From Novosphingobium sp. (GTDB lineage Bacteria; Pseudomonadota; Alphaproteobacteria; Sphingomonadales; Sphingomonadaceae), in contig NZ_JAIXZS010000100.1 of assembly GCF_027489515.1 (NCBI RefSeq), forward strand, positions 1 to 64,000: a DNA stretch of 64,000 nucleotides, read 5' to 3'. The notes under the pieces were generated by a model. It had not been told where the DNA came from. It made no database searches and saw only the letters and a program-made list of their open reading frames with translations. This document shows, one piece after another, positions 34,040 through 54,290 of the stretch; the stretch's first letter is position 1, and every line of letters starts with the position of its first letter. Both the position numbers and the translations under genes were made by a program.

Positions 34040-35323
34040 ATGAATTCTTTCGGCAAAATCGGTATTGTTGGACTTGGTTACGTCGGTCTGCCCCTCGCTG
34101 TCTCGTTTGCCCGCAAGCATGAAGTGGTCGGCTTCGATGTGAGCGAGACCCGCGTCGCCACGCTGCGCGAAGGCCATGACTACACCAACGAGATCTCGTC
34201 CGAGGAATTGAAGGCGTCCCGTCTCCTCATCACCGGATCGGTCGAGGATCTGCGCGGTTGCGGCATCCTCATCGTGACCGTGCCGACTCCGGTGGACGAC
34301 AGCTGCCGCCCCGATTTCTCCAACCTGACCGATGCCTGCGCCGCGATCGGCAAGATCATCGCACCCGGCACGATCATCGTCTTCGAAAGCACGGTCTATC
34401 CCGGTGCGACCGAGGAAGTCTGCGCGCCGGTGCTTGAGGCGGCTTCCGGGCTCAAGAGCGGCGAGGGCTTCAAGCTCGGGTACAGCCCCGAACGCATCAA
34501 CCCGGGCGACAAGGCGCATCCGCTGGAGGCCATCGTCAAGGTGGTGGCCGGGCAGGACGACGAAACGCTCGATACCCTCGCCGATCTCTATGGCTCGATC
34601 ATCCATGCGGGCATCCACCGCGCCTCGTCGATCCGCGTCGCCGAAGCTGCAAAGGTCATCGAGAACACCCAGCGCGATATCAACATTGCGCTGATGAACG
34701 AGATCTCGAAGATTTGCGATCTCGTCGGCATCCGCACCAGCGAAGTGCTGGCGGCGGCCGGGACCAAGTGGAACTTCCTGAAGTTCTACCCCGGGCTGGT
34801 CGGCGGGCACTGCATCGGCGTTGACCCCTACTACCTCACCGCCAAGGCGGAGCAGATGGGCTATCACCCCGAGGTCATCCTCTCCGGCCGCCGCATCAAC
34901 GACAGCATGGGCAGCTACATCGCGCAGCGCGCGGTCAAGCTGCTGGCCATTGCCGGGCATCCGCTCAAGGATGCGCGGGTCGGCATTCTCGGTCTGACCT
35001 TCAAGGAAAACGTGCCCGATATCCGCAATTCCAAGGTGGAGGATATCTACCGCGAACTGTGCGAATTCGGCATCGTCCCGATTGTCCACGATCCCATGGC
35101 GAACGATGAGGCGACCCGCCGCGAGTTCGGCATCGAGCTTTCGCCGATCGAGGCTTTCACCGGGATCGACGTGCTGATCTATGCGGTCTCGCATGAGCAC
35201 TACGCGGCGATGGGCATCGAGGCGATTCAGGGCATGATCGCGCCCGCAGGCATCCTGATCGACGTGAAATCGTCCATCGCGCCCGAAGGCCTGCGCGAGG
35301 ACATCCGGTACTGGAGCCTCTGA
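34040..35323 (+). CDS. UDP-sugar 6-dehydrogenase (WbpA/TviB type)
   Basis: A 427-residue NAD-dependent nucleotide-sugar dehydrogenase making a UDP-uronic acid for surface polysaccharide. N-terminal Rossmann motif KIGIVGLGYVGLPLA, then VTVPTPVD, ESTVYPGATEEV and GYSPERINPGDK (all typical of the WbpA/TviB UDP-HexNAc branch), the catalytic Cys in GGHCIGVDPYYL (about 257-268), and the C-terminal UDP-binding domain (GLTFKENVPDIRNSKVEDI). Branch assignment favours UDP-GlcNAc/GalNAc over UDP-glucose but is not certain. It is the first gene of the long plus-strand locus. Confidence 0.9.
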   Translation: MNSFGKIGIVGLGYVGLPLAVSFARKHEVVGFDVSETRVATLREGHDYTNEISSEELKASRLLITGSVEDLRGCGILIVTVPTPVDDSCRPDFSNLTDACAAIGKIIAPGTIIVFESTVYPGATEEVCAPVLEAASGLKSGEGFKLGYSPERINPGDKAHPLEAIVKVVAGQDDETLDTLADLYGSIIHAGIHRASSIRVAEAAKVIENTQRDINIALMNEISKICDLVGIRTSEVLAAAGTKWNFLKFYPGLVGGHCIGVDPYYLTAKAEQMGYHPEVILSGRRINDSMGSYIAQRAVKLLAIAGHPLKDARVGILGLTFKENVPDIRNSKVEDIYRELCEFGIVPIVHDPMANDEATRREFGIELSPIEAFTGIDVLIYAVSHEHYAAMGIEAIQGMIAPAGILIDVKSSIAPEGLREDIRYWSL

Positions 35324-35393: not shown

Positions 35394-37904
35394 TTGAGCC
35401 GGCTGTCGATCACTCCCATCGGCACATGCCGGATCAACACGCCGCTCCGCCGCGGGCAGGCGCGCTACCCGGTCGAGATCAGAAGCGAGCGCATCTACGG
35501 CTTCACTCATACCAGCGCCGAAGCTCTCCAGCAGCTCGCGTATCTGGAAGGCGAACGGCAGTTCGATGCGGCGGTGCTGCCAATCCTGTTCCGCCCGCAA
35601 AGCGATGGCCGGCAGGACCAGCCGGTTGCCCCGCGCCCCGATCTCTATGTGGTCGAGATCAGCTCGGCCAAGAGCTACCGGGTCGGCGACGTTGCGGTCC
35701 AGTCGAACTATCTTTCACGCTACTTCGCCGATTTCTTCGCCTCGGCGCCGCGCTCGAAGCGCTTTTGGGCCCTCGCGGCGGCGACCTCTGCTTCTGCGCG
35801 CGCGGAGCTTGACGCGTTCCTTGCCGCCGATCCGGTCTACCGGACCTATGGCAGCAGCGACCGCGAGCTCCTCCGGTCGATTTCGATGCGCACCCAGGGG
35901 TTCGATGATATCGCGGCCGACATGGCCGAGCTTGCCGAGCGCATGGGCAAGGACCGGGTCGTCTTCGTGACCCACGTGAATGCGCACGGCGCGGACGGCA
36001 CGTTCATCCCCGCGCGTGACCGGATCATCCGCTGGATCCGCAAGGCCGCTGCCGAGATCGGCGTGCCCTGCTTCGATCCCAGCGCGCTGATGCATGCATT
36101 CGGGCAGGAACGCGCGATGGAGCGCGATGGCCTCGATACGATGCACTACACCAACGCGTTTTCGGACCGCTGGTATGCGCAGTTCCACGGCGAGTTCATC
36201 CTGCCCCGGCTCGCCGAGGTACAGGGCGGCGATCAGGCCGGCGATCTTCCCGATCCTTCGCTGCTGGCCTCGAGCATTGCCGCGACGATGGAGTTCGACG
36301 ACTACTTCGTCGGCTCGCGGCAGCTGTTCGCGGCCCTTGCCAATGATCCCGCCAATCCGGCACTGCGGCTGCTGGGCGGCGAGGTCTATGCGCGGATCGG
36401 CGATTATCCGAACACGGTCGCCATGCTCACGCCGCTGCTCGAAAGTCCGGAGATGACCACGGCGGGCCTGCTCGCGCTAATGCGGGCGCAATTCGAGATC
36501 GGCCACTGCGCGGAGGCCATCGCGCTGGCCGACCGGCTGCTGGGCGACGAGTACGAATCGATCGAGATCTACGAAGTGGCAAACCTCGCAGCCGAGCGGT
36601 TGGGGCTCATGGCCGATGCCGTGCGCTATGCCATGCTCGCGTTCCGGCTCGATCCCACGCAGCACCGGTTCGCCTTCCGGGTGCTCGATGCCTATCGCGC
36701 GGCGGGCGAGAGCCAGAAGCTCGAGGCCTGGCGGACAGAAGTGCTGGACCGGCTGAACACCAGTCCGGACGCGGTCCTCGCGCGGGCGCTGGCGGAATGG
36801 GCGATCGGCCATGGCGATGAGCCGGCCTTCCGGGCCACTGCGATGATCGTCGCGCGATCGGGTATCGAGAAGGTCGAGCCGGTGATCGAGGAGGCCGTCG
36901 CGCGCGACCTGCTCGGCGCTGCGGCCGAGGTCATGACCATGGTCGCCTCGATGCCGGAGATTACCGGGCGCACACTGCGCAAGTTCCGCCAGATCGCCGA
37001 AAGCTGGTCCGCGCAGAGCCAGACCTGGTTCGAGGAAGGCCGGACCGCCGATGCCTATGCCTTGGCCGAGGTCTGCCGGATCGTGCTGCCCGGCAATGCA
37101 ACGGCACGCCGCGTTGAACGGCAAGTGCTGCAGGACTTGCGCCTGCGGATCCGCGACGCGCTGACCCGCGGCGAGCATGGCGAGGTTATCGCAATGGGCG
37201 AAGGCGCCGGGCGCATGGTCTATCGCCAGCCCGAGATCGTCACCGCATTTGCCAAGGCGCTGCTCGCCGCCGGACGCGCCGAGGAGGCATTGGCCGTGGT
37301 GCGCGAGGCTTGCGAAACTCTGCCCGACAGCGTCGATGTCCAGGCTCTGCACGCTCAGATCGCCACGTTGCAGGGCGATCTGCTGACACCGCTGCGGCTC
37401 TATGGCCGGCTGCGCGCGTCGAGCGATCCGCTGGTCGAGCGCTACCGCCCGCGCATGGCGAAGTTCCTCGACAAGGCCGGGCGCACCGGACCGCGCCTGT
37501 TCCGCACGCTTGTGGCGCAGGCCCAGTACGAACAGGCGCTCGAACTGGCGGCGCTTGTCAGTACCCACACCGATGGCGGCGAGCAGGTTGCAGCTGATCT
37601 GCAGAAGCTTCGGCGGGTCCTGCGCAGTGCCTTCCGCCAGCTTGATGAAGAGGAAGGCAGCGGCGAGGAGGCCCTGCGCATTCTCCGGCTCATGCTGGTG
37701 ATCGACGGCGAGGACGCCTGGGCGCTGCGCCTTGCGGCGATCCAGGCCATGCGCTTGCAGCAATTCGAGGCGGCGCTGGCCTACTGGCGCAAGTTTGACG
37801 CGATTTCGCCGGGACAGGACAGCACGGCGCGCAACATCAACCGGTGCGAGATCCTCGTCCGCCGCATGACCGCCGCGCGCAGGGCTGAGGCCAAGGCCGG
37901 CTGA
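35394..37904 (+). CDS. SGNH-like/GSCFA-like head fused to TPR-like repeats, copy 1
   Basis: An 836-residue protein paralogous to the one at 48696. The N-terminal ~290 residues begin with ITPIGTCRINTPLRRG. They contain LYVVEISSAKSY, VQSNYLSRYFADFFASAPR, VVFVTHVNAHGADG and DGLDTMHYTNAFSDRWY. The spacing of the early G-T-C element, the HxN block and a terminal D-x-x-H suggests an SGNH-hydrolase-type fold (compare GSCFA), with Thr/Cys where Ser is expected. The remaining ~540 residues are helical repeats of TPR character. The start is a TTG with AGGG 10 bases upstream. It may de-acylate or acylate the polysaccharide or scaffold the assembly; no function is established. Confidence 0.72.
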   Translation: MSRLSITPIGTCRINTPLRRGQARYPVEIRSERIYGFTHTSAEALQQLAYLEGERQFDAAVLPILFRPQSDGRQDQPVAPRPDLYVVEISSAKSYRVGDVAVQSNYLSRYFADFFASAPRSKRFWALAAATSASARAELDAFLAADPVYRTYGSSDRELLRSISMRTQGFDDIAADMAELAERMGKDRVVFVTHVNAHGADGTFIPARDRIIRWIRKAAAEIGVPCFDPSALMHAFGQERAMERDGLDTMHYTNAFSDRWYAQFHGEFILPRLAEVQGGDQAGDLPDPSLLASSIAATMEFDDYFVGSRQLFAALANDPANPALRLLGGEVYARIGDYPNTVAMLTPLLESPEMTTAGLLALMRAQFEIGHCAEAIALADRLLGDEYESIEIYEVANLAAERLGLMADAVRYAMLAFRLDPTQHRFAFRVLDAYRAAGESQKLEAWRTEVLDRLNTSPDAVLARALAEWAIGHGDEPAFRATAMIVARSGIEKVEPVIEEAVARDLLGAAAEVMTMVASMPEITGRTLRKFRQIAESWSAQSQTWFEEGRTADAYALAEVCRIVLPGNATARRVERQVLQDLRLRIRDALTRGEHGEVIAMGEGAGRMVYRQPEIVTAFAKALLAAGRAEEALAVVREACETLPDSVDVQALHAQIATLQGDLLTPLRLYGRLRASSDPLVERYRPRMAKFLDKAGRTGPRLFRTLVAQAQYEQALELAALVSTHTDGGEQVAADLQKLRRVLRSAFRQLDEEEGSGEEALRILRLMLVIDGEDAWALRLAAIQAMRLQQFEAALAYWRKFDAISPGQDSTARNINRCEILVRRMTAARRAEAKAG

Positions 37905-38005
37905 TTGCCGGGGCGAGACCGGTCCGGCTTACGCGGCAGGCGGAAGAGCCGGGCAGGGCTGGCAGGCTTGGCCGGGCGGCACTTGTGTGCAATAGGCCGC
38001 GCCTG

Positions 38006-39982
38006 ATGACCACTCCAACCGCTACGGCTGAAGAAGGCACGTCCCCGTTCAAGGCCGGTCTGGCCGCCTTGCGCCAGGGCGAATGGGACGAAGGCCGCGC
38101 GCTGATCGAAGCCGGCCGCGCAACCGGCGCAGAACCCGATGGCGAGGTCCGCCTGCTGCTGGCGATTGCGGATATCCGCACTGGCCGGGCCGATGTCGAT
38201 GTGCTGGCCGATCATGCGATCACCGCAGGCGCACTCGGCGATCTGCGGCGACTGCTGGTCAATCCGCTTGTCAGCGAAGGCGCCCCGGCGCGGGCCGTGC
38301 GGGTCCTCGATGCGATGATTGCGGCTTGCCCGCCGGGGCTCAGGGACTTGCGCCAGCGCGCCGGGCTCCATGCGCGCCTGCGCGATTGGGACGCCGCGAT
38401 TGCCGATGCCGATGCTATCGCCGGGCTCGACGCGAGCGACACCTTCACGCAGGCGATGCGGCTGCAGTATCGCCTGCAGGCGGGCCGCATCGCCGAGGCT
38501 GCGGCGATCGTCGATACGATCGGCGTCATGCCGGCGGACGAGCGCGTGGCCACGTTCATGCTGCTCGTGCTGCTGCGCGAGGGGCGGCTCGAGCAGGCGG
38601 CCGATCGCGCGCAGCAGGTCGAGATCGAGACGGTGACCGATCCGGCGCTTGCCGGTGCGATTGTCCAGGCACTGTTCCGCGCGAAACGGCACGATGCGGC
38701 GATCGCGGCGGGCGAGCATCTGGTCGGGCTCGGGCTCGAAAGCATGATGCTCCGTTCGCATCTGGCGCAGGCGTGGATCGCGGGCGGGCCGCTGCAGAAC
38801 CGCTCCGCCAAGGCGATCGAACACCTCGAAGCCGGCGTCGCGCTCGCGCCCGATGATCTGCGCATGGTCTCGCTGCTCGGCTCGCTGCTGCTGCGCGCCG
38901 GCAAGACCGAGGCCGCGCTGCCGCACTTGCGCAAATGCGTCGAAAAGCAGCCGCAGATGGGCCAGATTCGGGCGCTCTATGCCCGCGCGCTCAAGCAGAC
39001 CGGCCGGCATGAGGAAGCGGCGAACGAGTTCGTCGAGATGCTCTCCAGCGTGCCCGACGAAGGCACGCGCTGGCGGCGCTACGCTGCGGGCGCCCTGGCG
39101 CAGGCCGGACGGCGCGAGGAGGCGGCCGACCTGTTCGATGCCTGGGTCGCGACCCGGCGCGAAGGATTGCCCGACAGCTTCGGCGATGGGCTCGAGGCGC
39201 TGTGGGACAAGCTCGATACGGTGAAAATCCCGCAGGAACGGCTCGATTGGGCCTGGTCGCTACGCGATCCGGACTGCACGCTGGACCGCGCGGAATGGGA
39301 TCGCCGCGCCAAGTGGGGGCATCTGGCCGATCACTTCCTGCTCGACTGGCTCGAATGCCGCGACGCGCAGGTCGAAGAGGCCATGTACCACTTTGCCGAC
39401 GAGCTCGATTTCCTCGAGCGATTCACCGCCGAAGCGCGTGCGCGGGCGCCGGGCAAGGGGGTGGTCTATGCCTCGGCTCATATCGGCGCGATGTACTTCG
39501 GGCCGCTGGCGCTCGAACTGATCGGCGAACGGTCGCGCTGGGTCGCCTCGACGCCCAGCGTGGCGCGCACGTCCTATTCGGAAACGCTGATTTCCACGAG
39601 CGACCAGACCGAGACGCAAGTCGTGCGCGCGTTCATGCAGGCGCTCAAGCAGGATTGCATCGTGGTGATCGTCGCCGATGGTGCGATCAACCTTGCCGCG
39701 CCGCGGGTCGAGTTCGAGGGTCAGGACGTGACCTATTCGCAGTTCGCGGCGCGCACGGCCTATCGCATGGGCTCGCCCTCGGCGTTCGTCTCACCGGTCT
39801 GGCGGCCGGACAACCACCTCGGCTTCGTGCTCGAGCACCTGCCGATGCCCGAAGAGGGCGAGACTGCGGATGACTATGCGCAGCGCTGGCAGGACGCCTA
39901 TTTCGGCCACTTGCGCCGCTTCCTGGCGGGCAAGCCCGAAAATCTGCGCCTTGCCGGCGGGATCTGGCGCAATATCCGCTGA
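38006..39982 (+). CDS. TPR repeats fused to LpxL/HtrB-like acyltransferase domain
   Basis: A 658-residue protein. Residues about 10-400 form TPR-like repeats (for example AAIEHLEAGVALAPDDLRMVSLLGSLLLRAGKTEAALPHL-like segments). The C-terminal ~250 residues resemble a lysophospholipid/lipid A acyltransferase: YASAHIGAMYFGPLALELIGERSRWV, followed by VIVADGAINLAAPRVEFEGQ and the SQFAARTAYRMGSPSAFVSPVW segment. The HX4D/E catalytic motif is not clean (HIGAMY), so activity is uncertain. ATG 38006 gives MTTPTATAEEG. Position inside the polysaccharide locus suggests lipidation or acylation of the glycan or its anchor. Domain assignment of the C-terminus is tentative. Confidence 0.68.
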   Translation: MTTPTATAEEGTSPFKAGLAALRQGEWDEGRALIEAGRATGAEPDGEVRLLLAIADIRTGRADVDVLADHAITAGALGDLRRLLVNPLVSEGAPARAVRVLDAMIAACPPGLRDLRQRAGLHARLRDWDAAIADADAIAGLDASDTFTQAMRLQYRLQAGRIAEAAAIVDTIGVMPADERVATFMLLVLLREGRLEQAADRAQQVEIETVTDPALAGAIVQALFRAKRHDAAIAAGEHLVGLGLESMMLRSHLAQAWIAGGPLQNRSAKAIEHLEAGVALAPDDLRMVSLLGSLLLRAGKTEAALPHLRKCVEKQPQMGQIRALYARALKQTGRHEEAANEFVEMLSSVPDEGTRWRRYAAGALAQAGRREEAADLFDAWVATRREGLPDSFGDGLEALWDKLDTVKIPQERLDWAWSLRDPDCTLDRAEWDRRAKWGHLADHFLLDWLECRDAQVEEAMYHFADELDFLERFTAEARARAPGKGVVYASAHIGAMYFGPLALELIGERSRWVASTPSVARTSYSETLISTSDQTETQVVRAFMQALKQDCIVVIVADGAINLAAPRVEFEGQDVTYSQFAARTAYRMGSPSAFVSPVWRPDNHLGFVLEHLPMPEEGETADDYAQRWQDAYFGHLRRFLAGKPENLRLAGGIWRNIR

Positions 39983-39993
39983 CCTGTTCGCCT

Positions 39994-41436
39994 TTAGTGG
40001 CGATCGAGATCGAGCCGCAGCAGGATGCGCGCCGAAGTGGGCGGCACCAGGACTTCGGCGCTCACCGGTTGCTCATCAAGCGCCGCCCACTGCCCATCGG
40101 CCAGCCGGTAGCGCATGGTCGCCGTGGAGGACGGGTTGACCAGCACGAGCCCGCGGCGGAACGGACGGACCCAGCCGCCGCCCGGCACTTCCTCGGCCGG
40201 ACCGGCCGGCGCGCCGACGCGCGGGTTGAGATTGGGCGGGTAGCGCAGTTCGGGGATGCGCACCCCGTTCTTGACCGCGCCGAGATAGCTCTGCGGCCCG
40301 CGCGCCAGCAGGAAATTGCCGACGATCCACTGCGCTTCGTCATCGCCGATATCATCCGGGAACGCGCAGGTCTTTTCGAGCGCGACCCAGGCCATGCGCT
40401 GCGCCGCCCAGCGAGCGGCCTCGAACTTGGCACGCCACACATCGTCGCTCACCCGCTGGGTGCAGCCGCGGCTGGTGCCCGCTTCCTCCAGCCAGATATC
40501 GCCGAGCGCGATCAGCCTGCGGGTCTTGGCGGCGTCTTCCGGCACGACCGAGGCGTTGAGCGCAAGGAGGCCGCCGCGCGCGTGGATCGCGTCCGCCAGC
40601 CACTTGACCCAGTCCATCACCGCCTGCTCGTAGACCGGGTCCTTGCCTTCGCCGGAGAACAGCTGGACCCACTGGCCATTGCGGTACACGCCGCAGCGGC
40701 GGCCGCCGTTGCGCAGGCTCACATTATCGAGCGCGATGACCTTGTGGCCAGATCGCAGGGCCGGGGCGATGTACCGTTCAAGGATATAGTCCCGCACTGC
40801 CGGGTTGGTCGTGTCAATCGGTGCATAGGCGCCCCAGGCATAGGTGAACAGCGGCGCCGGCGTGGTCCGGTCGCACTTATAGACGATCCGGTCCGGGGCG
40901 TTACCGGCATACCAGTCCGCCGTGTGGCTGCGATCCAGATCGCGGTCCATCGGGTAGTAATAGCTGCCGATGGCGCGCCCGTGCGGCGCTGATCCGCCCC
41001 ACACGAAGCCGACCTCGCTCGCGGTCCGCGAAGTGTCCACGCGCCGGTTGTCGGTCATCTGCGCAAAGGTGATGCGGTCCTCGGGCAACATGGGAAAGCC
41101 GCGCGTGCCGCCCTGCCAGCCGGGGTTTGCGTCGCCCGCCTCGCGGCGCTCGGGGTTAGCGGCCCGGGTATCGCCGGAGCCATCGCCAAGGGTATCGGCA
41201 GAGGTATCGGCAGGGCCATCTGCACGGCCATCGTCAGAAGCATCGTCAGGTGCATCGACAGGCGGCGCAGCCCTCTGCGCCGCGATCCCGTGCGCCGCGG
41301 TCCCGTGCGCCTCGCTGCGCGTGTCGGCTAGTGCGCCGCAACCGCCGGTCGCCAGCACCAGGGCCGCCACGGCGCCGAACAGGCGCACCGTCCCGCGAGG
41401 ACCGACATAGGCAGCAAGGGAGAACGGGGATGGCAT
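39994..41436 (-). CDS. Putative glycoside-hydrolase-like lipoprotein with Asp-rich repeats
   Basis: A 480-residue protein, the only minus-strand gene inside the polysaccharide locus. A lipobox is present in LFGAVAALVLATGGCGA, so it is a probable lipoprotein. A low-complexity linker with eight 4-residue Asp-starting units follows (encoded by 41161-41256). The catalytic part (about 140-480) looks like a TIM barrel of the putative glycosidase type: FTYAWGAYAPIDTTNPAVRDYILERY, VIALDNVSLRNGGRRCG, WVKWLADAIHARGGLLALNASV and DIWLEEAGTS. It may trim or release the exported glycan. The start at 41436 is chosen from the lipoprotein signal; 41472 is an alternative. Family identity is uncertain. Confidence 0.68.
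   Translation of the reverse strand: MPSPFSLAAYVGPRGTVRLFGAVAALVLATGGCGALADTRSEAHGTAAHGIAAQRAAPPVDAPDDASDDGRADGPADTSADTLGDGSGDTRAANPERREAGDANPGWQGGTRGFPMLPEDRITFAQMTDNRRVDTSRTASEVGFVWGGSAPHGRAIGSYYYPMDRDLDRSHTADWYAGNAPDRIVYKCDRTTPAPLFTYAWGAYAPIDTTNPAVRDYILERYIAPALRSGHKVIALDNVSLRNGGRRCGVYRNGQWVQLFSGEGKDPVYEQAVMDWVKWLADAIHARGGLLALNASVVPEDAAKTRRLIALGDIWLEEAGTSRGCTQRVSDDVWRAKFEAARWAAQRMAWVALEKTCAFPDDIGDDEAQWIVGNFLLARGPQSYLGAVKNGVRIPELRYPPNLNPRVGAPAGPAEEVPGGGWVRPFRRGLVLVNPSSTATMRYRLADGQWAALDEQPVSAEVLVPPTSARILLRLDLDRH
41161..41256 (-). repeat. Degenerate 12-bp tandem repeat (8 units) within lipoprotein gene
   Basis: Eight in-frame 12-base units, each encoding a tetrapeptide starting with Asp (DxxD, DxxA or DxxG). 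The units are imperfect at DNA level but stay in frame. They form the flexible acidic linker between the lipid anchor and the catalytic domain and are a likely site of length variation among strains. Confidence 0.8.
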
Positions 41437-41669
41437 GGGCTTGGGCTTTCTCCAGATCGGCAATGTCACCATTGCGGAGCGCGCGGGGCACTCCAAGTCG
41501 TTTCTGGTCCCGCTCGCCACACTTTGCATCGTCATGATGAACGCGCGCTGACCACCACCCGCCAGCCCCAACCGGGCAGACTGCTCCGAATCCAAGCCGA
41601 ATTGTGGTGGACGCCTTGCTGCAATTGCGGCAGAGACCCGCCGCCGCTTACAGGGACGGTGTTGTTCAA

Positions 41670-42881
41670 ATGGTTATCCAAACGCCGCGGATTCCGGACA
41701 GAGTCCGCTGGCTGAATGCCCGCGGTGAACGTGATTTCGCGGGACAGCATGAGCTTGGCGAGATTGTTCTCGCGCGCAACCCGCAGGATGTATTCGTGCG
41801 CCGCCGCATGGCCCGGCTGTGCGAGGTCGAGCGACGCCTGGACGAGGCCGAGGCGCATTGGACGGCTCTTCGCGATGACGAGCCGGCTGACTTCGAGGCT
41901 GCCTTTCATCTTGCGCGCGCGGCCGTGGCGCGGGGTGCCGATCCGCTGGCCGCCGCCGCCGCTGCGGCGCCGGCTGGCAATGCGTGCTTCCACGGCGCGC
42001 TGGTCGATGCGCTCGCCGAGCCAGCGCCGGTGCTCGAAGGCGATTTCAAGCATGTCGCGATCTGCGGCGCCTCCTATTGCGGCAGTACGCTGGTGGACCG
42101 CCTGCTCGGCGGATTGCCGGGCGTGCGCAGCATCGGCGAATCCCACTGGCTGACCAAGGTCCGCCGCGAAAGCGGGTATGGCGATGCCGATTGGTCCGCA
42201 CCGCTGGCCGAGGCCCGGTTCGTGCCGTGCACCGTGTGCGGCGGGCGCTGCACGGTGCTGGAGCCGGCGCTCCGCCGTTCGCTCGCGGCGGATGCGTGCG
42301 ACTGGTACCGCAAGATTGCCGCGCGGCTCGATACGCGCATTCTCGTCTCGGCGGACAAGAACCTGCGCAAGCTGGTTGATCACGATCCGCGGCTCGAAAT
42401 GTCGGCGCTGGTCATTTTCAAGTCGCCCGAGCAGGCCTGGCGTTCGCAGCTCGACAAGCTGGCGGCGGACCGCGAGCCCGAGTTCTATACTGACGCCTGC
42501 CGCCGCTATCTGGCGACCTGGCTGGGCAGCTACCGGCCGTTCCTCGATCACTTCCGGCCGCAAGGCGAGGTCGTGTTCCTCAATTTCGATGCCTTCACCC
42601 AGCATCCTGCGCCGCTGCTGCGCGCGCTTTGCGCGAAGCTCGAGCTGCCGTTTGCGGAAAGCGTGCTGTCGACGACCGTCCCCGGCCATGCCATCGGGGG
42701 CAATGGCCGCTCGATGCGCCGCTTGCGCGATCAGGGCTATGCGGTCGAGATCCTGCCGCTGCCCGATCCGGCCATCGCGCCGGAGCAGGCCGCCATCATT
42801 GCGGCGGATCCGCTGGTCCAGGCGACCTGGCAGGAGATGATGGCGCGGCATGATGAACTTGCCGCGCAAGCCCTTGTCTGA
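41670..42881 (+). CDS. Sulfotransferase-like protein with helical N-terminal domain
   Basis: A 403-residue protein. The first ~125 residues are helical, TPR-like (LDEAEAHWTALRDDEPADFEAAFHLARAA). A P-loop sulfotransferase-like domain follows, beginning VAICGASYCGSTLVDRLLGGLPGV, the 5'-PAPS-binding loop (SG/CGSTL), with SADKNLRKLVD and a later YDA-type acceptor region. A Cys-rich insert (VPCTVCGGRCTVL) may bind zinc. ATG 41670 is preferred to the tracked GTG at 41604 because family-like sequence starts there. It probably sulfates a sugar of the polysaccharide, using PAPS made elsewhere. Confidence 0.78.
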   Translation: MVIQTPRIPDRVRWLNARGERDFAGQHELGEIVLARNPQDVFVRRRMARLCEVERRLDEAEAHWTALRDDEPADFEAAFHLARAAVARGADPLAAAAAAAPAGNACFHGALVDALAEPAPVLEGDFKHVAICGASYCGSTLVDRLLGGLPGVRSIGESHWLTKVRRESGYGDADWSAPLAEARFVPCTVCGGRCTVLEPALRRSLAADACDWYRKIAARLDTRILVSADKNLRKLVDHDPRLEMSALVIFKSPEQAWRSQLDKLAADREPEFYTDACRRYLATWLGSYRPFLDHFRPQGEVVFLNFDAFTQHPAPLLRALCAKLELPFAESVLSTTVPGHAIGGNGRSMRRLRDQGYAVEILPLPDPAIAPEQAAIIAADPLVQATWQEMMARHDELAAQALV

Positions 42882-43847: not shown

Positions 43848-45002
43848 ATGGACGGCGGGGCTTGCAAGGACATGGGTTTGACTGGTTCAGTGCGTCACGG
43901 CCGAGCGGCATCCTCTTCCCGATCCGGTTTGCGCATCGCCGCAGCCCTGCTGCCGGTGCTGGCTCTGGGGGCCTGCGCTCTCCCGCGCAGCGGCCCTTCC
44001 GCGCGCGATTTCACCCGCGCCGGAGCCGATGGCTCGATCCAGCTGGTCGAAGCGACGATGGCCGATGCGGTCGAGGCGCGCCAGCCGCGCCCGCTCGGCT
44101 TTGATGCCGCTTGGCGCGAAGCCGCCGCATCGACCTTCTCCGAGATCGGAATTGGCGACCAGCTGACGGTGACGCTCTTCGAGCGCGACGGGCTCAATGT
44201 CTTTGCCGCCGGGCCTGATGGCTATTCCCGGTTCGAGGGGGTTGTCGTCGATGCCGCCGGCACGATCCAGCTGCCCTATATCGGCCGCGTCCACGTCGCG
44301 GGTCTGAGCCCGATCGAGGCGCGCGGCGCGATCCTGCGACCGCTGCGGCGCCTTGCGCTGAGTTCGGACGTGACCGTGACCGTGACCGACCGGCGCAGCG
44401 AGAGCGTGACGGTGCAGGGCGATGTGTCGAAGCCCGGCCTCGTTTCGCTGGCCCCGCAGACGAGCCGCCTTTCGGCGATCCTCGGGCTGGCCGCGCCGAC
44501 CACCGCCAATCTCGAGCTTGCCACCGTCACCGTCCGCCGCGACGGGCGCAATGCCACCGTGCGCTTGTCCGATCTCTATGACGAGCCGCAGGAGGATATC
44601 GCGCTCAAGGGCGGTGACGTCGTCATCGTCCGTGCAGCGCCCGGTACGGTCAACGTGCTTGGCGCGGCGGGTATCCAGGGGCGCGTGCGGATTACCCGGC
44701 GCAACTACAGCGTGGTCGATGCGGTGGGCGATGCGCGCGGTCTCAACGATTCGCTCGCCAGCCCCTCGTCAGTCTATCTGATGAAGCTCAGCTCGGGCGC
44801 GGAGGCGGTCGCCGCCAACCCGCGCGTCTATCATTTCGATTTCCGCAGCCCGGCGCAGATTGCCGTGGCGGCCGCCTTTGCCGTGCAGGACGGCGATGCC
44901 ATCCTGATTTCCAACGCGCCCTTCGCCCAGTCGCACAAGGTGCTTTCAACGTTCAGCGGCGTCCTCACCACGGCGCGGTCGGCCACCGCGCTGGCGCCCT
45001 GA
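43848..45002 (+). CDS. Polysaccharide export outer-membrane lipoprotein (Wza/KpsD-like)
   Basis: A 384-residue polysaccharide biosynthesis/export protein. The signal ends in a lipobox (PVLALGACALPR). The PES domain begins SEIGIGDQLTVTLFERDGLNV, with VVDAAGTIQLPYIGRVHVAGLSPIEA; SLBB-like repeats follow (VTVQGDVSKPGLVSL; VNVLGAAGIQGRVRITRRNYSVVDAV). It should form the outer-membrane portal. Either ATG 43848 or ATG 43872 may start it. It heads the export block with permease, ATPase-like and KpsE-like genes at 10-20-base spacings. Confidence 0.88.
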   Translation: MDGGACKDMGLTGSVRHGRAASSSRSGLRIAAALLPVLALGACALPRSGPSARDFTRAGADGSIQLVEATMADAVEARQPRPLGFDAAWREAAASTFSEIGIGDQLTVTLFERDGLNVFAAGPDGYSRFEGVVVDAAGTIQLPYIGRVHVAGLSPIEARGAILRPLRRLALSSDVTVTVTDRRSESVTVQGDVSKPGLVSLAPQTSRLSAILGLAAPTTANLELATVTVRRDGRNATVRLSDLYDEPQEDIALKGGDVVIVRAAPGTVNVLGAAGIQGRVRITRRNYSVVDAVGDARGLNDSLASPSSVYLMKLSSGAEAVAANPRVYHFDFRSPAQIAVAAAFAVQDGDAILISNAPFAQSHKVLSTFSGVLTTARSATALAP

Positions 45003-45011
45003 GAGCGATAG

Positions 45012-46376
45012 GTGGCGGGCAACGAGGATCGGATCGCCAAGTGGCGTGAGCGCCGCGAGGCCGAGCGCGCCGCACGCGAGGCGCATGGCGATCTGCCGAC
45101 CGAACTGGCGCTGGTCGCCTCGCGCGCCGAAGCGCTCGCGACCGGCGACAGCGAGGATCCCGAGCCGATCTTCGCGCTGGTCATCGACGTGCTGCGCCGG
45201 CTGCCGAGCGGATCGATCGCAGAGCGCCGGGCGCTGTTTGATGCCGTGGCGCGCGGCGTGGAGCGCGGGATCGACAAGGCGGACCCCCATTCGGACTACG
45301 CCGAGCTGCGCCGCCGCCAGCTGCGCACCATCATCCGTCTGGTCGAGGCCGACGCCCGCGCCGGGCTTGCGATTGCCGAGCTCGGCTACCGGCCGGCAAG
45401 CTTCGAGGATGCGCTGGAGCCGTTGCTCAAGGGCTACCTGCGCCGCCGCAAGATCAGCGAGGAGACAGCCGCGAGCCAGGCACGGCGGCAGGCGATCCTT
45501 GCCGGCGAGGCCTACACGATCGCGGTTCCCGCCGAGGAAGAGGCGGACCTCGACTTCCTGCGCGAGCGTATCGCGCTGCTCGACGCCACGCGCGGGCCGC
45601 GCTCCGGCCGGCATGACCGGCCCGATCTGCGCGCGGTGCTGGCGCTGCTCAATTACCAGTTCGTCCTGCTCAAGTCGGAGAGCCGGCTGGCGCTGGCGTG
45701 GACGCTGGTCGGCCCCGCGGTGCTGATGGGCCTGCTTTCGACCGCCTATCTGCTGACCGGCATCCATTCGATCCTCAACATGGACGTGCCGACCTTTGCG
45801 ATGATCGGCGCGACGTCGTGGTTCATGCTGCGCAACGTCATCTTTCGCACCACCGCCTCGTTCTTTTCGCAGCGAACGATGCTGACATTCCGCGCCTTCA
45901 ATCCGGCGCTGATCGGGATCACGCAGGGCATGATCTACATGCTGTCCTATGTGCCGGTCTATCTCGTGCTCATCATCGTTGGCCATATTGCGGGCCTGTT
46001 CACCCTGCCGGACAACATTCCCGGCGTGGTCTTCTGGATCGGCTGCATTGGCCTGACCGGGCTGGCGATCGGCACGATCTTCGGCTCGATCTCCGTCGTC
46101 TGGCCCTATTTCCCGCGCTTCGCGCCGGTGATCGAGCGCGCCTTGCAGATCGTCTCGAGCGTCATTCTTGTCACCGAGCAGCTGCCGATGGATTACCGGC
46201 CGTACCTGCTCTGGTCGCCGCTTGCGCATGCCATGCAGCTGCTGCGCTCGGCCTATTTCGAGGGCTACAAGTCGGAGGATGCCGTTCCCCAATACTTCTT
46301 CATCGGGTTCGGTCTGCTGGTGATTGCCGCCGTCATCGCCCAAAGGTCGGTGCGTCCACGCGCCGTGCCGCTCTAG
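45012..46376 (+). CDS. KpsM-like ABC-2 permease with long N-terminal extension
   Basis: A 454-residue protein. The C-terminal ~235 residues are a typical six-TM ABC-2/KpsM permease: LNYQFVLLKSESRLALAWTLVGPAVLMG, FAMIGATSWFMLRNVIFRTTASFFSQ, and the late LWSPLAHAMQLLRSAYFEGY (compare NPLxxxxExxR of KpsM). The first ~220 residues are soluble and charged, with a coiled-coil-like start (RIAKWRERREAERAAREAH) and RAEALATGDSEDPEPIF; usual KpsM is only ~260 residues in total. The start is GTG at 45012. The extension may compensate for, or dock, the degenerate ATPase partner encoded next. Confidence 0.85.
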   Translation: MAGNEDRIAKWRERREAERAAREAHGDLPTELALVASRAEALATGDSEDPEPIFALVIDVLRRLPSGSIAERRALFDAVARGVERGIDKADPHSDYAELRRRQLRTIIRLVEADARAGLAIAELGYRPASFEDALEPLLKGYLRRRKISEETAASQARRQAILAGEAYTIAVPAEEEADLDFLRERIALLDATRGPRSGRHDRPDLRAVLALLNYQFVLLKSESRLALAWTLVGPAVLMGLLSTAYLLTGIHSILNMDVPTFAMIGATSWFMLRNVIFRTTASFFSQRTMLTFRAFNPALIGITQGMIYMLSYVPVYLVLIIVGHIAGLFTLPDNIPGVVFWIGCIGLTGLAIGTIFGSISVVWPYFPRFAPVIERALQIVSSVILVTEQLPMDYRPYLLWSPLAHAMQLLRSAYFEGYKSEDAVPQYFFIGFGLLVIAAVIAQRSVRPRAVPL

Positions 46377-46388
46377 GATCGGCCGGTC

Positions 46389-47099
46389 ATGATCGATCTT
46401 CTTGCGGTATCGGCCGAGGCCGAAGTGTTCGGGCGGACGGTGTCCCTGTTCGAGGAAGCCGATTTTCACCTGCCGCCGGGCCGCTATGCCCTGCTTTCGC
46501 GCACGCCCGAGTATCACAAGTCGATTGTCGACGTGCTGGCCGGCCTGCGCAAGCCAAGCCGGGGGCGCGTGGCGATCACCGGAGCGATTTCGTGGCCGAT
46601 CGGGCGCTCGACCCTTGTGCGCGGCAAGTCCACCGGGCTCGATCTCGTCAATCTGGTGGCCGATCTCTACGATCTCGATCGCGGCTACGCGGGCGATCTT
46701 GTGACGATGATGGTCTCGCGCCCGGACTACATGGCGGAGCCGCTCGAGCGGTGGCCGCCGCCGGCGCGGCAGGAGTTCACCTTCGCGCTCGGGCTCATTC
46801 CCGAGTTTGACATCTACGTGATCGACGCGCCGATCCCCTACGAGGAATCGCGCTTCACCCGGCTGTGGCAGGCCTTGTTCGAGGAACGATTGGTGGGCAA
46901 GACGCTCATCCTGTCTTCGCTTCGGCAGAAACAGATGCTGGACTATTGCGCAAAGGGGCTGATCTATGAGCGTGCCACGCTCAGCATCGACCATGATCTT
47001 GAACAGTGCATCGAGCGGTTTCCTGCCCGTCCGGCGCGCGAAATGCTTGCGGTGACAAGCGGTGTCGGAGGCTACGATGACAGCGAAGTCCTTTTCTGA
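46389..47099 (+). CDS. KpsT-like ABC ATPase homologue with degenerate catalytic motifs
   Basis: A 236-residue protein with the length and layout of KpsT. It keeps the KpsT landmark ISWPIG (about 68-72) after VLAGLRKPSRGRVAITG. The Walker A position reads LLSRTPEYHKSIVDVLAG: the GxxGxGKS/T glycines are gone, with only K44-S45 left. The signature position reads RWPPPARQEFTFALGL instead of a SSGMxxRL-type motif. Walker B ends VIDAP instead of IDE, and the switch His is replaced (LSSLRQK). ATP hydrolysis is therefore doubtful. The reading frame is clean, so this is not simple gene decay. It lies between permease and KpsE-like genes and overlaps the latter. Confidence 0.84.
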   Translation: MIDLLAVSAEAEVFGRTVSLFEEADFHLPPGRYALLSRTPEYHKSIVDVLAGLRKPSRGRVAITGAISWPIGRSTLVRGKSTGLDLVNLVADLYDLDRGYAGDLVTMMVSRPDYMAEPLERWPPPARQEFTFALGLIPEFDIYVIDAPIPYEESRFTRLWQALFEERLVGKTLILSSLRQKQMLDYCAKGLIYERATLSIDHDLEQCIERFPARPAREMLAVTSGVGGYDDSEVLF

Positions 47100-48270
47100 G
47101 GACGTGGAAGAGTCCGGCTCGGACACGGGCGCGGATGGGGCGGGCGGTTCGCGCGCGCTGGCCATCGCGCGCGGGATGCGCGAGCGGACGCTGCGCGATC
47201 GCCGGCGCCGCCAGTGGCTCTCGGTCCTGATCGTCGCGGCCTCGGTGCTGGGCGCCCTCGGCTGGGGCGTGCTGGTGGTCCAGCCGCGGTATGCGGCCGA
47301 AACGCGCTTCTCGGTGCGGGGCAGCAGTGCGCCGGCGCAGAGCGCGGCCGGCGGCTTCGGCAGCGTGCTGGGCAGCGGAGCTGGCGCTTCGGCCGGGATC
47401 GGCTTTGTCGATGGCTATGCGGTCAACGACTTCCTCAAGTCGCGCGATTGCATGCAGCAGCTGGCAAAGCGCGTCGATCTGGCGCGCCTGCTTGATGTGC
47501 CGGCCTCGCGGGGAACCGAGGCGCTCTACCGTGCCTATCGCGACACGGTGGTGCCCAAGTTCTTCATGGTCGAGCAGGAGAACATGCTTGAGGTCGACGG
47601 GTTCGATCCGGCCCGTTCGAACCGCATCGCCAAGGAACTCCTGCTCATCGCCCAGACCTTCGTGGAGCGGATGGACGCGCAGGGTGTGCAGAACGCGCTC
47701 GACGTGAATGCGGCGCAGTTGCGCGCCGCGGAAGAACAGGCTGTCACCGCGGCCAATGCCGTTGCGGCCTGGCGCGCGACCAACCGCAATGTCGATCCCG
47801 AGGCGGAAAGCACCCTGATCATGACCATGATCGGCCAGATCGAGCAGGAGCTCAACGCGGCGCGGATCAACTATGAAAAGGTGCGCGCGTTCGGCAATCC
47901 CGATCATCCGATGTTGCGCCCGGCGCAGATGCAGGTCGATGCGCTAGAGCGGCAACTGGCGCAGACCCGCGCGCGGCTTGCCGGCAACAGCGGCTCGGCG
48001 GCAGCGCAGCTCAGGGCCTATAGCCAGCTGAAGAACGCGCAGACCTTCGCCGACAACAATCTGGCCTCGGCCCGCGATGCCTATCAGCAGGCCTATCGCG
48101 ACGTGACGCGCTTGCGCCGGTATCTGACCGTCATTTCGCAGCCGGTCGCACAGGATGTGCCGAGCAGTCCCAATCTGCCGCTGCTTGCGCTGGAAGGGTT
48201 GCTGGGGGGAATCGTTCTGGCGTTCCTGGTTTCACTGGTGCTCAGCCTGCGGCGCCCGGAACCGACCTGA
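47077..48270 (+). CDS. KpsE/CtrB-like capsule export inner-membrane protein
   Basis: A 397-residue polysaccharide co-polymerase-3-type protein. TM1 is RQWLSVLIVAASVLGALGWGVLVV (about 45-68), the long periplasmic part carries coiled-coil segments (NAAQLRAAEEQAVTAANAVAAWRATN; VDALERQLAQTRARL), and a C-terminal TM is LLALEGLLGGIVLAFLVSLVLSL. A Gly/Ser/Ala-rich stretch (GGFGSVLGSGAGASAG) follows TM1. ATG 47077 has GGAGG 6 bases upstream and is preferred over the tracked GTG at 47062; it overlaps the ATPase-like gene by 23 bases. It should link the ABC exporter to the outer-membrane lipoprotein. Confidence 0.87.
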   Translation: MTAKSFSEDVEESGSDTGADGAGGSRALAIARGMRERTLRDRRRRQWLSVLIVAASVLGALGWGVLVVQPRYAAETRFSVRGSSAPAQSAAGGFGSVLGSGAGASAGIGFVDGYAVNDFLKSRDCMQQLAKRVDLARLLDVPASRGTEALYRAYRDTVVPKFFMVEQENMLEVDGFDPARSNRIAKELLLIAQTFVERMDAQGVQNALDVNAAQLRAAEEQAVTAANAVAAWRATNRNVDPEAESTLIMTMIGQIEQELNAARINYEKVRAFGNPDHPMLRPAQMQVDALERQLAQTRARLAGNSGSAAAQLRAYSQLKNAQTFADNNLASARDAYQQAYRDVTRLRRYLTVISQPVAQDVPSSPNLPLLALEGLLGGIVLAFLVSLVLSLRRPEPT

Positions 48271-48695: not shown

Positions 48696-51209
48696 TTGCG
48701 TAAAATATCGATTTCGCCAATCGGTACGTGCCGTATCAATACTCCGCTCAAGCGGGGTATGGCGCGGTACCCGGTGCAGCTTGATCTGCGCCGGATCTAC
48801 GGCTTTGTGCACACGAGCGATGAGGCGGTGCAGCAGCTTCGTTATCGTAGCGGCGAGATATCCTTTTCTGACGATGTCTTGCCGGTGCTGTTCCGCCCGG
48901 GTCTGGAATGCGGCGCCGAGCCTGTGCCTGATCGGGCAGCAGACCTCACGATCGTCGAGATCAGTTCGGCGAAGTCCTACACGATTGGCGATGTCGCGGT
49001 TCAGGGAAACTACCTGAGCCGCTATTTTGCCGATTTCTTTGCCTCGGCGCCGCGCGCGCGCGTCTACTGGAATCTGGCGGCTCAGGGCGATGCCGCGGCG
49101 ATGAAGGCCTTCCTTGCGGATGATCCGGCCTTTCGTATCTATTCGGAATCGGATCGCAGCCTGCTCGAACGCATCCGCGTGCGTCAGCAGACATTTGATG
49201 ACGTGCGTGCCGATATGGCAACAGTCACCGAAATGCTCGGCAAGGACCGCGTGCTCTTCGTGACTCACGTCAATGCGTTGACGGCGGATGGCAGCCTCAT
49301 CGCCTCGCGTGACAAGGTGATCCACTGGATCAAGCGGGCCGCCAGCGAACTCGGCGCGGATTGCTTCGATCCGACCGGGCTCATGAACGCCTTCGGGCAG
49401 GCTCGTGCGCTCGAACGCGATGGCATGGACCTGACGCATTTCACCAATGCATTCTGCGACCGCTGGTATGCCGCCGTGCAGCGCGACTATGTCCTCAAGA
49501 GCGTTGCCGATAGCGAGATCGACGAAGCGACCGCCGCGCAGATCGATGCGGCAATCCTTGCTGAAAGCATCGCCACCGCGATCGCCCACGACGATTTCTT
49601 CGATGGCACGCACCAGCTGTTCGCCGCGATCAAGGCGCATCCCGAGAACGTCTCGCTGCACCTGCTGCACGGGCAGGTGCTGGCCCGGATCGGGGATTTC
49701 GAGGGGGCATGCCGCGTGCTCGCGCCCCATGTCGCCGCGGCCGAGATGACGGCCGAACTGCGACAGGCGCTGATGCGGGCCCAGCTCGAAACCGGTGACG
49801 CCGAGAGCGCGCTGGCGCTGGCCTGCCAGTTGCTGACCGACGAGTACGAAACGGTCGAGATTTACGAGATCGCGGGCAAGGCGGCCGATCAGCTCGGGCT
49901 GGCGGACGATGCGCTGCGCTATCGCAAGCTGGCCTTCCGGCTCGATCCCTCGAACCATGCTGCGGCCATATCGGTGCTGGAACGCTATCTGGCCGCCGGA
50001 AAGGGCGAGGCTCATGCCATCTGGCTGCGCGAGGTTCTCGAATTGCTCGATGCTCGCGGCACCGCTGCCGCAGCGCGGGCGCTGGTCGAATGGGCCATCA
50101 CCCGGCATGAGCCGGACGTGCTTGGCCGTGCGATGATCCTGCTTGCACGGCACGACATGATCCAGATTCCCGCGCTGGTTGATGAAGCCGTGCGGGCGGG
50201 CATGGAAGACGTGCTCCTCGCGATCGCGGCCACGATCATGGCCATGCCGAACCTGACCGACAAGGCGCAGCGCGCGCTGCAGAAAGTTGCGGCCGGATGG
50301 GCGAAGGAAGCCGAAGCGCTGCAGGCAGCGGGCCGGCACGCCGAGGCGTTCGCTTATGCCAAAGCGCTGCTTGCCGTGCTGCCCGGCAATGGACCGGCGC
50401 GGCGCATATGCCGCGCAATGGCGGTCGATCTGCTGGCGAAGGTGCGCGCCGCGCCGGGCGATGCGGCTGTCGCTGCGTTGTGCGAGGAGGCGGGCGACCT
50501 CGTCTACGAACTCGCCGCTGCCGCGCAGGCCTATGCCCGCGCCCTCGTCAATCTTGATCGGCTGGCCGAGGCGCAGGCCGTCTCTGCCCGGATCCTCGCC
50601 GAGGACCCCGATGCGATCGATGCCAGGGCCGCGCTTGCCCATATCGCCGGACTGCGCGGCGATTTCCTGACCGCCTTGCGGCTCTACACCAGCCTGGCCG
50701 AAGACCCGCACGAGATTGCCGAGCGCCACCGTGTGCGGATCGATCGCTTCCTCGCGAGCGCGGGTTCGCGCGGGGTGCGGCAGCTGCGCGTGCTGCTGGC
50801 CGAAGGCCGCAACGATGAGGCGATTGCCATCTGGGACCTGCTGCGCCGCCGGCTGGAGCTTGCAGAGGCGATGGCGACGGAGGCCATGCGCATGCGCAGC
50901 ATCCTGCGCAGCCAGCTGCGACAGCTTGACGATGACGAGGGCCAGCGCGGCGCGGTCAACGGGCCGCTCGAGATCCTCGATCACATGCTTATGCTGGCTC
51001 CCGATGATACCACCGTTCTGCGGCGCGCTGCGCTCGAGGCGATGCGGCAGCAGCAGTTCGAAAAGGCGGCTGCCTACTGGCGCCGGCTTGATTCCGTCAC
51101 ACCCGGTCTCCACGAGGTTTCGGTGTTTCTCGAGCGTTGCTCGGCCCGCGCACGTCGTCAGGCCCGCCATCAGGCGGCGTCACCTGCCGGCCCGTTGCTG
51201 GCGGCATGA
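48696..51209 (+). CDS. SGNH-like/GSCFA-like head fused to TPR-like repeats, copy 2
   Basis: An 837-residue paralogue of the protein at 35394, alignable over its full length. Shared blocks: SPIGTCRINTPLKRG, IVEISSAKSY, GDVAVQGNYLSRYFADFFASAPR, VLFVTHVNALTADG and DGMDLTHFTNAFCDRWY. The GTC element, HxN and D-x-x-H are all kept, implying selection on a possible SGNH-type active site. The C-terminal ~540 residues are TPR-like. It also starts at TTG, with no strong Shine-Dalgarno, so translation may be deliberately low. It is followed 35 bases later by the TPR-GT4 gene. Function unknown; the pair flanks the export core. Confidence 0.72.
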   Translation: MRKISISPIGTCRINTPLKRGMARYPVQLDLRRIYGFVHTSDEAVQQLRYRSGEISFSDDVLPVLFRPGLECGAEPVPDRAADLTIVEISSAKSYTIGDVAVQGNYLSRYFADFFASAPRARVYWNLAAQGDAAAMKAFLADDPAFRIYSESDRSLLERIRVRQQTFDDVRADMATVTEMLGKDRVLFVTHVNALTADGSLIASRDKVIHWIKRAASELGADCFDPTGLMNAFGQARALERDGMDLTHFTNAFCDRWYAAVQRDYVLKSVADSEIDEATAAQIDAAILAESIATAIAHDDFFDGTHQLFAAIKAHPENVSLHLLHGQVLARIGDFEGACRVLAPHVAAAEMTAELRQALMRAQLETGDAESALALACQLLTDEYETVEIYEIAGKAADQLGLADDALRYRKLAFRLDPSNHAAAISVLERYLAAGKGEAHAIWLREVLELLDARGTAAAARALVEWAITRHEPDVLGRAMILLARHDMIQIPALVDEAVRAGMEDVLLAIAATIMAMPNLTDKAQRALQKVAAGWAKEAEALQAAGRHAEAFAYAKALLAVLPGNGPARRICRAMAVDLLAKVRAAPGDAAVAALCEEAGDLVYELAAAAQAYARALVNLDRLAEAQAVSARILAEDPDAIDARAALAHIAGLRGDFLTALRLYTSLAEDPHEIAERHRVRIDRFLASAGSRGVRQLRVLLAEGRNDEAIAIWDLLRRRLELAEAMATEAMRMRSILRSQLRQLDDDEGQRGAVNGPLEILDHMLMLAPDDTTVLRRAALEAMRQQQFEKAAAYWRRLDSVTPGLHEVSVFLERCSARARRQARHQAASPAGPLLAA

Positions 51210-51244
51210 GCGGGCGGCGGCAGATTATCATGAGGGGGACGGAT

Positions 51245-53179: not shown

Positions 53180-53246
53180 GCCGAAGTAGGTCCGGCGCCG
53201 AAACGGCTGTCGGCATGTGCCGAGGCTTACCGCGCCGGAGAATCAG

Positions 53247-54290
53247 ATGGCCATCCTCGTAACCGGCAATGCCGGCTTCATCGGCTTCCACACTGCCAAG
53301 ACCCTGCTGGAGCGCGGGGACGATGTCGTCGGGCTCGATGTCGTCAACGATTACTATGATCCCGCGATCAAGGAAGCGCGCCTCGCCATTCTGGAGGAGA
53401 CCGCGCGGCGGACCAATGCGAAGTACACCTTCGTGCGCGCCAATCTCGCAGACCGCGCCGCAGTCGAACGCACGTTTGGCGAGAACGACATCCGCCGCGT
53501 GATCAATCTCGCCGCGCAGGCAGGGGTGCGCTACTCGATCGAGAACCCGCACGCCTACGTCGAGAGCAACATCATCGGGTTCACCAACATTCTCGAAGCC
53601 TGCCGCCACGGCGGGGTCGAGCACCTGGTCTATGCCTCGACCAGCAGCGTCTATGGTGCCAACCAGGCGATGCCCTTCAGCGAACATGTCGGGGTCGATC
53701 ACCCGCTGCAGTTCTACGCCGCGACGAAGAAGGCGAACGAGCTGATGGCGCACAGCTACAGCCATCTCTACCGCCTGCCGACGACCGGCCTGCGCTTCTT
53801 CACGGTCTATGGCCCGTGGGGCCGTCCGGACATGGCGCTGTTCCTGTTCGCCAAGAACATCATCGCGGGCAAGCCGATCGATGTGTTCAACTATGGCAAC
53901 CACACGCGCGATTTCACCTTCGTCAGCGACATCGTCGAGGGGGTGATCCGCGCCTGCGACCATCCGGCGCAGCCGAACCCGGATTGGGACGCCCACCGCC
54001 CCGATCCCGCGACGAGCAACGCGCCCTACCGGATCTACAACATCGGCAACAACAGCCCGGTGAAGCTCACCGAATACATCGAGGCGCTGGAAGAAGCGCT
54101 GGGCAAGAAGGCGGAGCGCAATCTCCTGCCGCTGCAGGCAGGCGACGTGCCGGATACCTTCGCCGATGTTTCCGATCTTGAGCGCGAGTTGGGCTACAAG
54201 CCCGCAACCACAGTGAAGCAGGGGGTCGCTGCCTTCGTGGAGTGGTACCTCGATTACATGGCCAAGCCCGCCGGAACCACGGCTCGCTGA
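53247..54290 (+). CDS. UDP-glucuronate 4-epimerase-like SDR
   Basis: A 347-residue extended SDR. NAD motif [16 protein letters not shown], the UDP-GlcA-epimerase signature [21 protein letters not shown], catalytic [10 protein letters not shown] and YAATKKANE (YxxxK), and [22 protein letters not shown]. It would interconvert UDP-glucuronate and UDP-galacturonate. ATG 53247 with GGAG upstream is chosen over the tracked 53217. Together with the UDP-sugar dehydrogenase it points to uronic acids in the polysaccharide. Confidence 0.9.

Follow-up and report, generated by a model that had tools for sequence, protein, structure and literature searches.

A VexE-type acyltransferase with a TPR superhelix in a Vi-like capsule locus of Novosphingobium

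The protein encoded at positions 38006 to 39982 of the window is very probably VexE, the acyltransferase of a capsule system that is Vi-like and of the ABC-transporter type. By the window we mean the whole stretch of 64,000 nucleotides that was analysed, from contig NZ_JAIXZS010000100.1 of a Novosphingobium sp. Homology, architecture, residue conservation and synteny are the basis for this assignment. VexE has been shown to be the UDP-GlcNAc C-6 beta-hydroxyacyl-ACP acyltransferase that starts the lipid anchor of the Vi capsule (PMC9597891); the identity is therefore already known, and the mechanism has been published for a homologue. New relative to the literature searched are the lipid-A-free host in which VexE is found here and a linked, conserved VexC without ATPase motifs.

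Identity and architecture of the VexE homologue

The reading frame of 658 amino acids begins with an ATG at 38006 and its stop codon ends at 39982 on the + strand; translation from an alternative GTG at 37985 would lengthen the protein by 7 residues. The following features were assigned within it:

38006..39982, + strand: VexE homologue, TPR superhelix plus LPLAT acyltransferase (NCBIfam NF011721, E=2e-177)
38045..39211, + strand: TPR region of VexE, residues 14-402, about 11 helix pairs (Pfam TPR hits, 23 helices in the AlphaFold2 model, Foldseek)
39233..39979, + strand: LPLAT acyltransferase domain, residues 410-658 (alpha/beta domain in the AlphaFold2 model; LpxM 5knk matched in a profile search)
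39479..39496, + strand: HX4Y motif H492-IGAM-Y497, predicted catalytic His, with Tyr replacing the usual acid (homologue tally, PMC9597891)
39677..39679, + strand: D558, predicted catalytic acid, equivalent to S. Typhi D553 and A. denitrificans D532 (homologue tally, PMC9597891)

The NCBIfam model NF011721, named VexE, 'Vi polysaccharide transport protein', matches residues 54-657 with 592 bits. Its equivalog cut-off of 1200 bits is a naming threshold and marks no biological feature; the window protein lies under it, as do VexE of Citrobacter (1068 bits) and of Achromobacter (968 and 950 bits), so that the cut-off does not separate true VexE proteins and was not treated as defining. Identity to Achromobacter VexE amounts to 46% over 580 amino acids, and to Citrobacter VexE to 37% over 616. 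Purifying selection is indicated by dN/dS values of 0.07-0.20 in three pairs.

An earlier note on this DNA, made from the letters alone, had proposed an acyltransferase of the LpxL/HtrB superfamily (LPLAT), fused to about 400 residues of TPR-like repeats and placed in a capsule locus. The TPR hits, the LpxM profile match and the Vi-like neighbours bear this out, but the precise and already known identity was missed; a clear match to another family, which the note had named as refuting its reading, was found with NF011721. The structure prediction suggested there was run on the basis of 30 homologues, and in the resulting AlphaFold2 model (mean pLDDT 91.7, pTM 0.85) residues 14-402 form a solenoid of 23 helices, after which comes an alpha/beta domain. 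The repeats are also recognised by Pfam (TPR_19, E=4e-14; TPR_16, E=4e-12). A Foldseek search with the whole model returned TPR proteins as best matches, e.g. the OGT TPR domain 1w3b; because the TPR part dominates the search and only TPR proteins occur among the matches listed, it neither supports nor refutes an LPLAT fold. The C-terminal domain alone gave nothing significant against Pfam (DUF374, E=0.14) and was identified solely through NCBIfam and the profile search that the note had also suggested, in which A. baumannii LpxM (PDB 5knk, E=1.7e-4) was matched by a profile built from the C-termini of 20 homologues, the catalytic His block and the VILPD block of LpxM lining up with VexE. The architecture of the VexE family, an N-terminal TPR superhelix with a C-terminal LPLAT domain, is present in the window protein; this fusion has been described before (PMC9597891).

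With VexE of Salmonella Typhi, Citrobacter and Achromobacter the window protein shares the arrangement of about 11 TPRs and an LPLAT domain, the HX4Y motif, the His/Asp dyad, the donor-tunnel residues, most acceptor residues and the surrounding tvi/vex genes, at 37-46% identity to the Citrobacter and Achromobacter proteins. It differs from known VexE in its host, which is without lipid A genes, and in the substitutions N441 to His and S644 to Ala. The late acyltransferases LpxL/LpxM (HtrB/MsbB) have the same LPLAT fold, catalytic His and acyl-ACP donor, but they lack a TPR head, carry an HX4D/E motif and act at the membrane on lipid A precursors. The mycobacterial PIM mannose C-6 acyltransferase PatA resembles VexE in acylating O-6 of a sugar with a His and a downstream acid, whereas its donor is acyl-CoA, its acceptor is mannose and its structural identity to VexE is about 10% (PMC9597891).

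Catalytic residues and proposed reaction

The earlier note had rightly remarked on the lack of a clean HX4D/E motif, which reads H492-IGAM-Y497 here. The catalytic His is kept in all 73 homologues, while the motif acid occurs in 0/73 (Tyr in 65, Phe in 8) and an acid further downstream is present in 73/73 (Asp in 68, Glu in 5). The family signature consists of the catalytic His, a Tyr or Phe as sixth residue of the motif and, apart from these, an Asp or Glu further downstream; in the window protein these are H492, Y497 and D558. Decay of an HX4D/E motif was considered and rejected by this tally; the absent acid is a family hallmark, and D558 is the predicted catalytic acid. In the A. denitrificans enzyme, which uses beta-hydroxyacyl-ACP to acylate UDP-GlcNAc at O-6, H466A abolishes activity and D532A substantially reduces it; the acid of HX4D/E is Tyr in VexE, and Phe is tolerated there in an active enzyme (PMC9597891).

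The S. Typhi counterparts are H487, Y492 and D553, those of A. denitrificans H466 and D532 (PMC9597891). We mapped the S. Typhi residues through Citrobacter VexE, in which the His and the Tyr correspond to Typhi positions 487 and 492. H487, Y492, S510 and D553 are kept as H492, Y497, S515 and D558; R356, P407, R410, G645 and R649 as R358, P409, R412, G651 and R655; and V534, V535, F575 and R578 as V539, V540, F580 and R583. At two modelled acceptor contacts the window protein deviates, N441 being replaced by H443 (His in 52/73 homologues) and S644 by A650 (Ala in 9/73), so that acceptor choice could differ.

By analogy with A. denitrificans VexE, the one VexE for which this activity has been shown, the window protein is predicted to be a beta-hydroxyacyl-ACP:UDP-GlcNAc C-6 acyltransferase, and we infer the activity of this copy, the chain length, the polymer structure and the role of the TPR head along the following lines. 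The enzyme would take a beta-hydroxyacyl chain from ACP, accommodate it in the LPLAT tunnel and transfer it to O-6 of UDP-GlcNAc, with H492, held by D558, deprotonating the sugar hydroxyl and S515 forming the oxyanion hole. The acyl-GlcNAc would then be the reducing-end anchor of a capsule polymer that the TviE-like transferase would make, that the TviD-like enzymes and probably the sulfotransferases would decorate, and that would leave the cell through VexA-D. The most likely role of the TPR head would be to lead the product away from the active site or on to the polymerase; a product channel has been proposed for the TPRs of VexE (PMC9597891).

The Vi-like locus and its export genes

The full gene company of the VexE family (tviB, tviD, tviE, vexA-D) surrounds vexE in the window, together with additional genes:

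34040..35323, + strand: TviB-like UDP-GlcNAc C-6 dehydrogenase (NF011729, E=9e-127)
35394..37904, + strand: TviD-like O-acetyltransferase with C-terminal TPR, copy 1 (NF011727, E=1e-75; Pfam TPR)
39994..41595, - strand: divergent protein that looks secreted, perhaps a glycoside hydrolase (homologues next to vexE in several sphingomonad loci)
41604..42881, + strand: sulfotransferase with short helical head (Sulfotransfer_3, E=2.6e-7; TPR_14, E=0.85)
43848..45002, + strand: VexA outer-membrane export protein (NF011722, E=9e-46; Poly_export, SLBB)
45012..46376, + strand: VexB/KpsM membrane subunit with N-terminal extension of about 190 amino acids (KpsM, E=1.6e-13)
46389..47099, + strand: VexC/KpsT-type subunit without ATPase motifs (profile against KpsT 8tsh, E=9e-25)
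47062..48270, + strand: VexD/KpsE polysaccharide co-polymerase (TIGR01010, E=3e-42)
48696..51209, + strand: TviD-like protein, copy 2 (NF011727, E=5e-84; 46% identity with copy 1 by blastp)
51137..53179, + strand: TviE-like GT4 polymerase (NF011726, E=7e-149)
53217..54290, + strand: TviC-like sugar-nucleotide epimerase (GalE, E=2e-44; TviC NF011728, E=2e-30)
54310..55446, + strand: second GT4 glycosyltransferase (Pfam)
55419..56252, + strand: sulfotransferase (Sulfotransfer_3, E=8e-7)

Each part of viaB (UDP-GlcNAc dehydrogenase, C-4 epimerase, TviD, TviE and VexA-E) has a homologue, with the epimerase closer to GalE, whose model outscores TviC and leaves the subfamily unsure, and with VexC degenerate. 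The TviE-like reading frame overlaps the upstream gene, and its true start probably lies inside the frame. Relative to known VexE loci the window has an extra GT4, sulfotransferases and a second TviD, and vexE is split from the GT4-sulfotransferase pair: in nine of the ten other sphingomonad loci that have a second GT4, its gene begins no more than about 25 bp from the end of vexE or overlaps with vexE, whereas in the window it lies away from vexE at 54310, the pair having been rearranged. The second GT4 and the sulfotransferase are candidates for extending or decorating the anchor or the polymer. Within the available flanks, the loci of Burkholderiales and Citrobacter showed no homologue of the second GT4 (GT2). 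The extra transferase and sulfotransferase genes suggest a polymer different from Vi, modified and probably sulfated. The protein at 39994..41595 had no match in Pfam, NCBIfam or PDB; it might be a functional counterpart of VexL, possibly a hydrolase. Some smaller observations may be added: two full-length TviD-like proteins occur within one locus; the GT4 and sulfotransferase genes (54310-55446, 55419-56252) lie directly 3' of vexE in most other sphingomonad loci; and a 265-aa protein at 42966-43763 (+ strand) has no family match, contains a Rossmann-like DLGTGPCHFP stretch, looks methyltransferase-like by eye and also adjoins vexE in two other loci (L008 and L014).

The earlier note suggested that other enzymes of the locus carry helical heads, perhaps as a shared scaffold or docking system; as to the heads, this is partly right. 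The two TviD-like proteins have TPRs, which are C-terminal (Pfam, E=2.9e-7 and 3.6e-5), the head of the TviE-like glycosyltransferase had no TPR family match in Pfam at E<=0.01, and the sulfotransferase head at 41604..42881 is marginal (TPR_14, E=0.85). Recruitment of TviE by the TPR of TviD is reported in PMC9597891, citing Wear et al. 2022. A docking system shared among the locus enzymes is thus partly anticipated and possible.

The VexC of the window lacks the Walker A motif, the Q-loop Gln, the signature, the Walker B Glu and the switch His in a motif alignment, with GRNGAGKS replaced by RTPEYHKS, the Q-loop Gln by Arg, SSGM by PPPA and DE by DA; a TPE(x)H segment is conserved. Its structural model (pLDDT 65, modest) nevertheless finds KpsT and Wzt in Foldseek. 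The same losses occur in 50 loci, mostly of Achromobacter, Bordetella, Caballeronia and Novosphingobium, with one Mesorhizobium (e.g. L018:7989-8699 and L012:17822-18529), and dN/dS values of 0.02-0.18 in four pairs indicate purifying selection. Walker A is kept in VexC of Citrobacter and some sphingomonads; outside VexE loci, profile hits with readable motifs keep GxNGxGKS, and all but one keep the Walker B DE. A search for an ABC ATPase that might replace VexC turned up only unrelated, distant ABC genes around the loci and no KpsT-like match in the genome of the window at E<=1e-8; some other genomes carry a second KpsT-like gene. A long VexB, mostly of about 446 amino acids, co-occurs with degenerate VexC, and a short VexB with VexC that keeps Walker A. 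The VexB profile matches PDB 8tsh_C at profile positions 191-447 (E=1.5e-16), and the N-terminal extension of about 190 amino acids had no structural match; it opens with a 'NEDRI..W..RR' stretch resembling the VexD N-terminus in Sphingomonas loci. No mention of a motif-less VexC was found in the literature searched, which did not include the most relevant papers.

Hosts, alternative readings and distribution

LpxA (above the cut-off), LpxC and LpxD were absent from the nine sphingomonad vexE genomes searched, that of the window included, while Mesorhizobium, Achromobacter and Citrobacter gave clear hits in the same searches. This implies that lipid A is not made in these sphingomonads; sphingolipids in place of LPS are reported for sphingomonads (PMC11165598). 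Lipid A enzymes such as LpxA have been proposed as the source of the second acyl chain carried by the Vi anchor, a matter left open in the VexE study (PMC9597891). A second chain as seen on Typhi Vi could not come from LpxA, LpxC or LpxD in these hosts. We consider, at slightly less than an even chance, that the VexE-type anchor is made here in a lineage without the lipid A pathway, VexE sufficing (joined by a non-Raetz enzyme if the anchor is diacylated), and that export is powered without a VexC ATPase. VexC would then be neither a P-loop ATP binder nor a hydrolyser, and export would have to be powered otherwise, e.g. by polymerisation or by an ATPase in trans. If true, this would speak against the view that every capsule exporter of this type is driven by ATP through a subunit of its own.

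It is extremely improbable that the protein is a lipid A late acyltransferase of the LpxL/LpxM type, with lipid A as its substrate, to which a TPR head has been added. The LPLAT fold common to LpxL/LpxM and the LpxM profile match (E=1.7e-4) would fit such an enzyme, but LpxA, LpxC and LpxD were not found in the genome of the window or in eight other sphingomonad vexE genomes, and the family score for VexE and the synteny of the capsule genes weigh overwhelmingly against it; the reading is refuted here unless the lpx genes lie in the ~5% of the assembly that is missing, and likewise in whatever is missing from each relative. Membership in LpxL/LpxM was rejected (HX4Y in the window, the motif acid in 0/73 homologues, no lipid A pathway found). 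Hardly more probable is an inactive acyltransferase-like scaffold kept for TPR docking: the HX4D/E motif is indeed missing and TPRs make up more than half of the protein, yet the His and the downstream acid are each present in 73/73 homologues, the donor-tunnel residues are conserved, and the HX4Y enzyme of Achromobacter shows activity, also with Phe in place of the Tyr (PMC9597891), Phe being natural in eight homologues.

Unlikely, though to be taken more seriously, is a VexE paralogue with a different acceptor or chain, serving a polymer that differs from Vi in being sulfated and in involving two glycosyltransferases. The changes N441 to His and S644 to Ala at the modelled acceptor site speak for it, as do the sulfotransferases and the extra GT4, which directly follows vexE in 9/10 other sphingomonad loci. 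However, His occupies the N441 position in 52/73 homologues, and most of the 73 are from Burkholderiales, where activity has been measured (A. denitrificans), so that N441 to His alone implies no new acceptor; the TviB-like dehydrogenase and the TviE-like polymerase are also kept.

A species-level genome scan yielded 68 vexE loci, from Sphingomonadales, Burkholderiales, Mesorhizobium, Citrobacter and Budvicia, and tvi/vex genes accompany vexE in nearly all of those with sufficiently long flanks. Among species of Novosphingobium, N. fuchskuhlense carries vexE. In evenly drawn samples the gene is rare, with 2/385 genomes at the level of the class and 4/399 at that of the phylum, the genome of the window being included in both counts. 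The carriers named in PMC9597891 are only Salmonella, Citrobacter and Burkholderiales, and we found no report of Vi-like loci in sphingomonads in the literature searched. In a VexE tree, in which the placement of long branches is unsure, the sphingomonads form several deep lineages, the Burkholderiales one and the Enterobacterales one long-branched group; several deep lineages of VexE belong to sphingomonads of the environment, which are only distantly related to the typhoid bacillus. Among viral contigs, one match of 37% identity was found.
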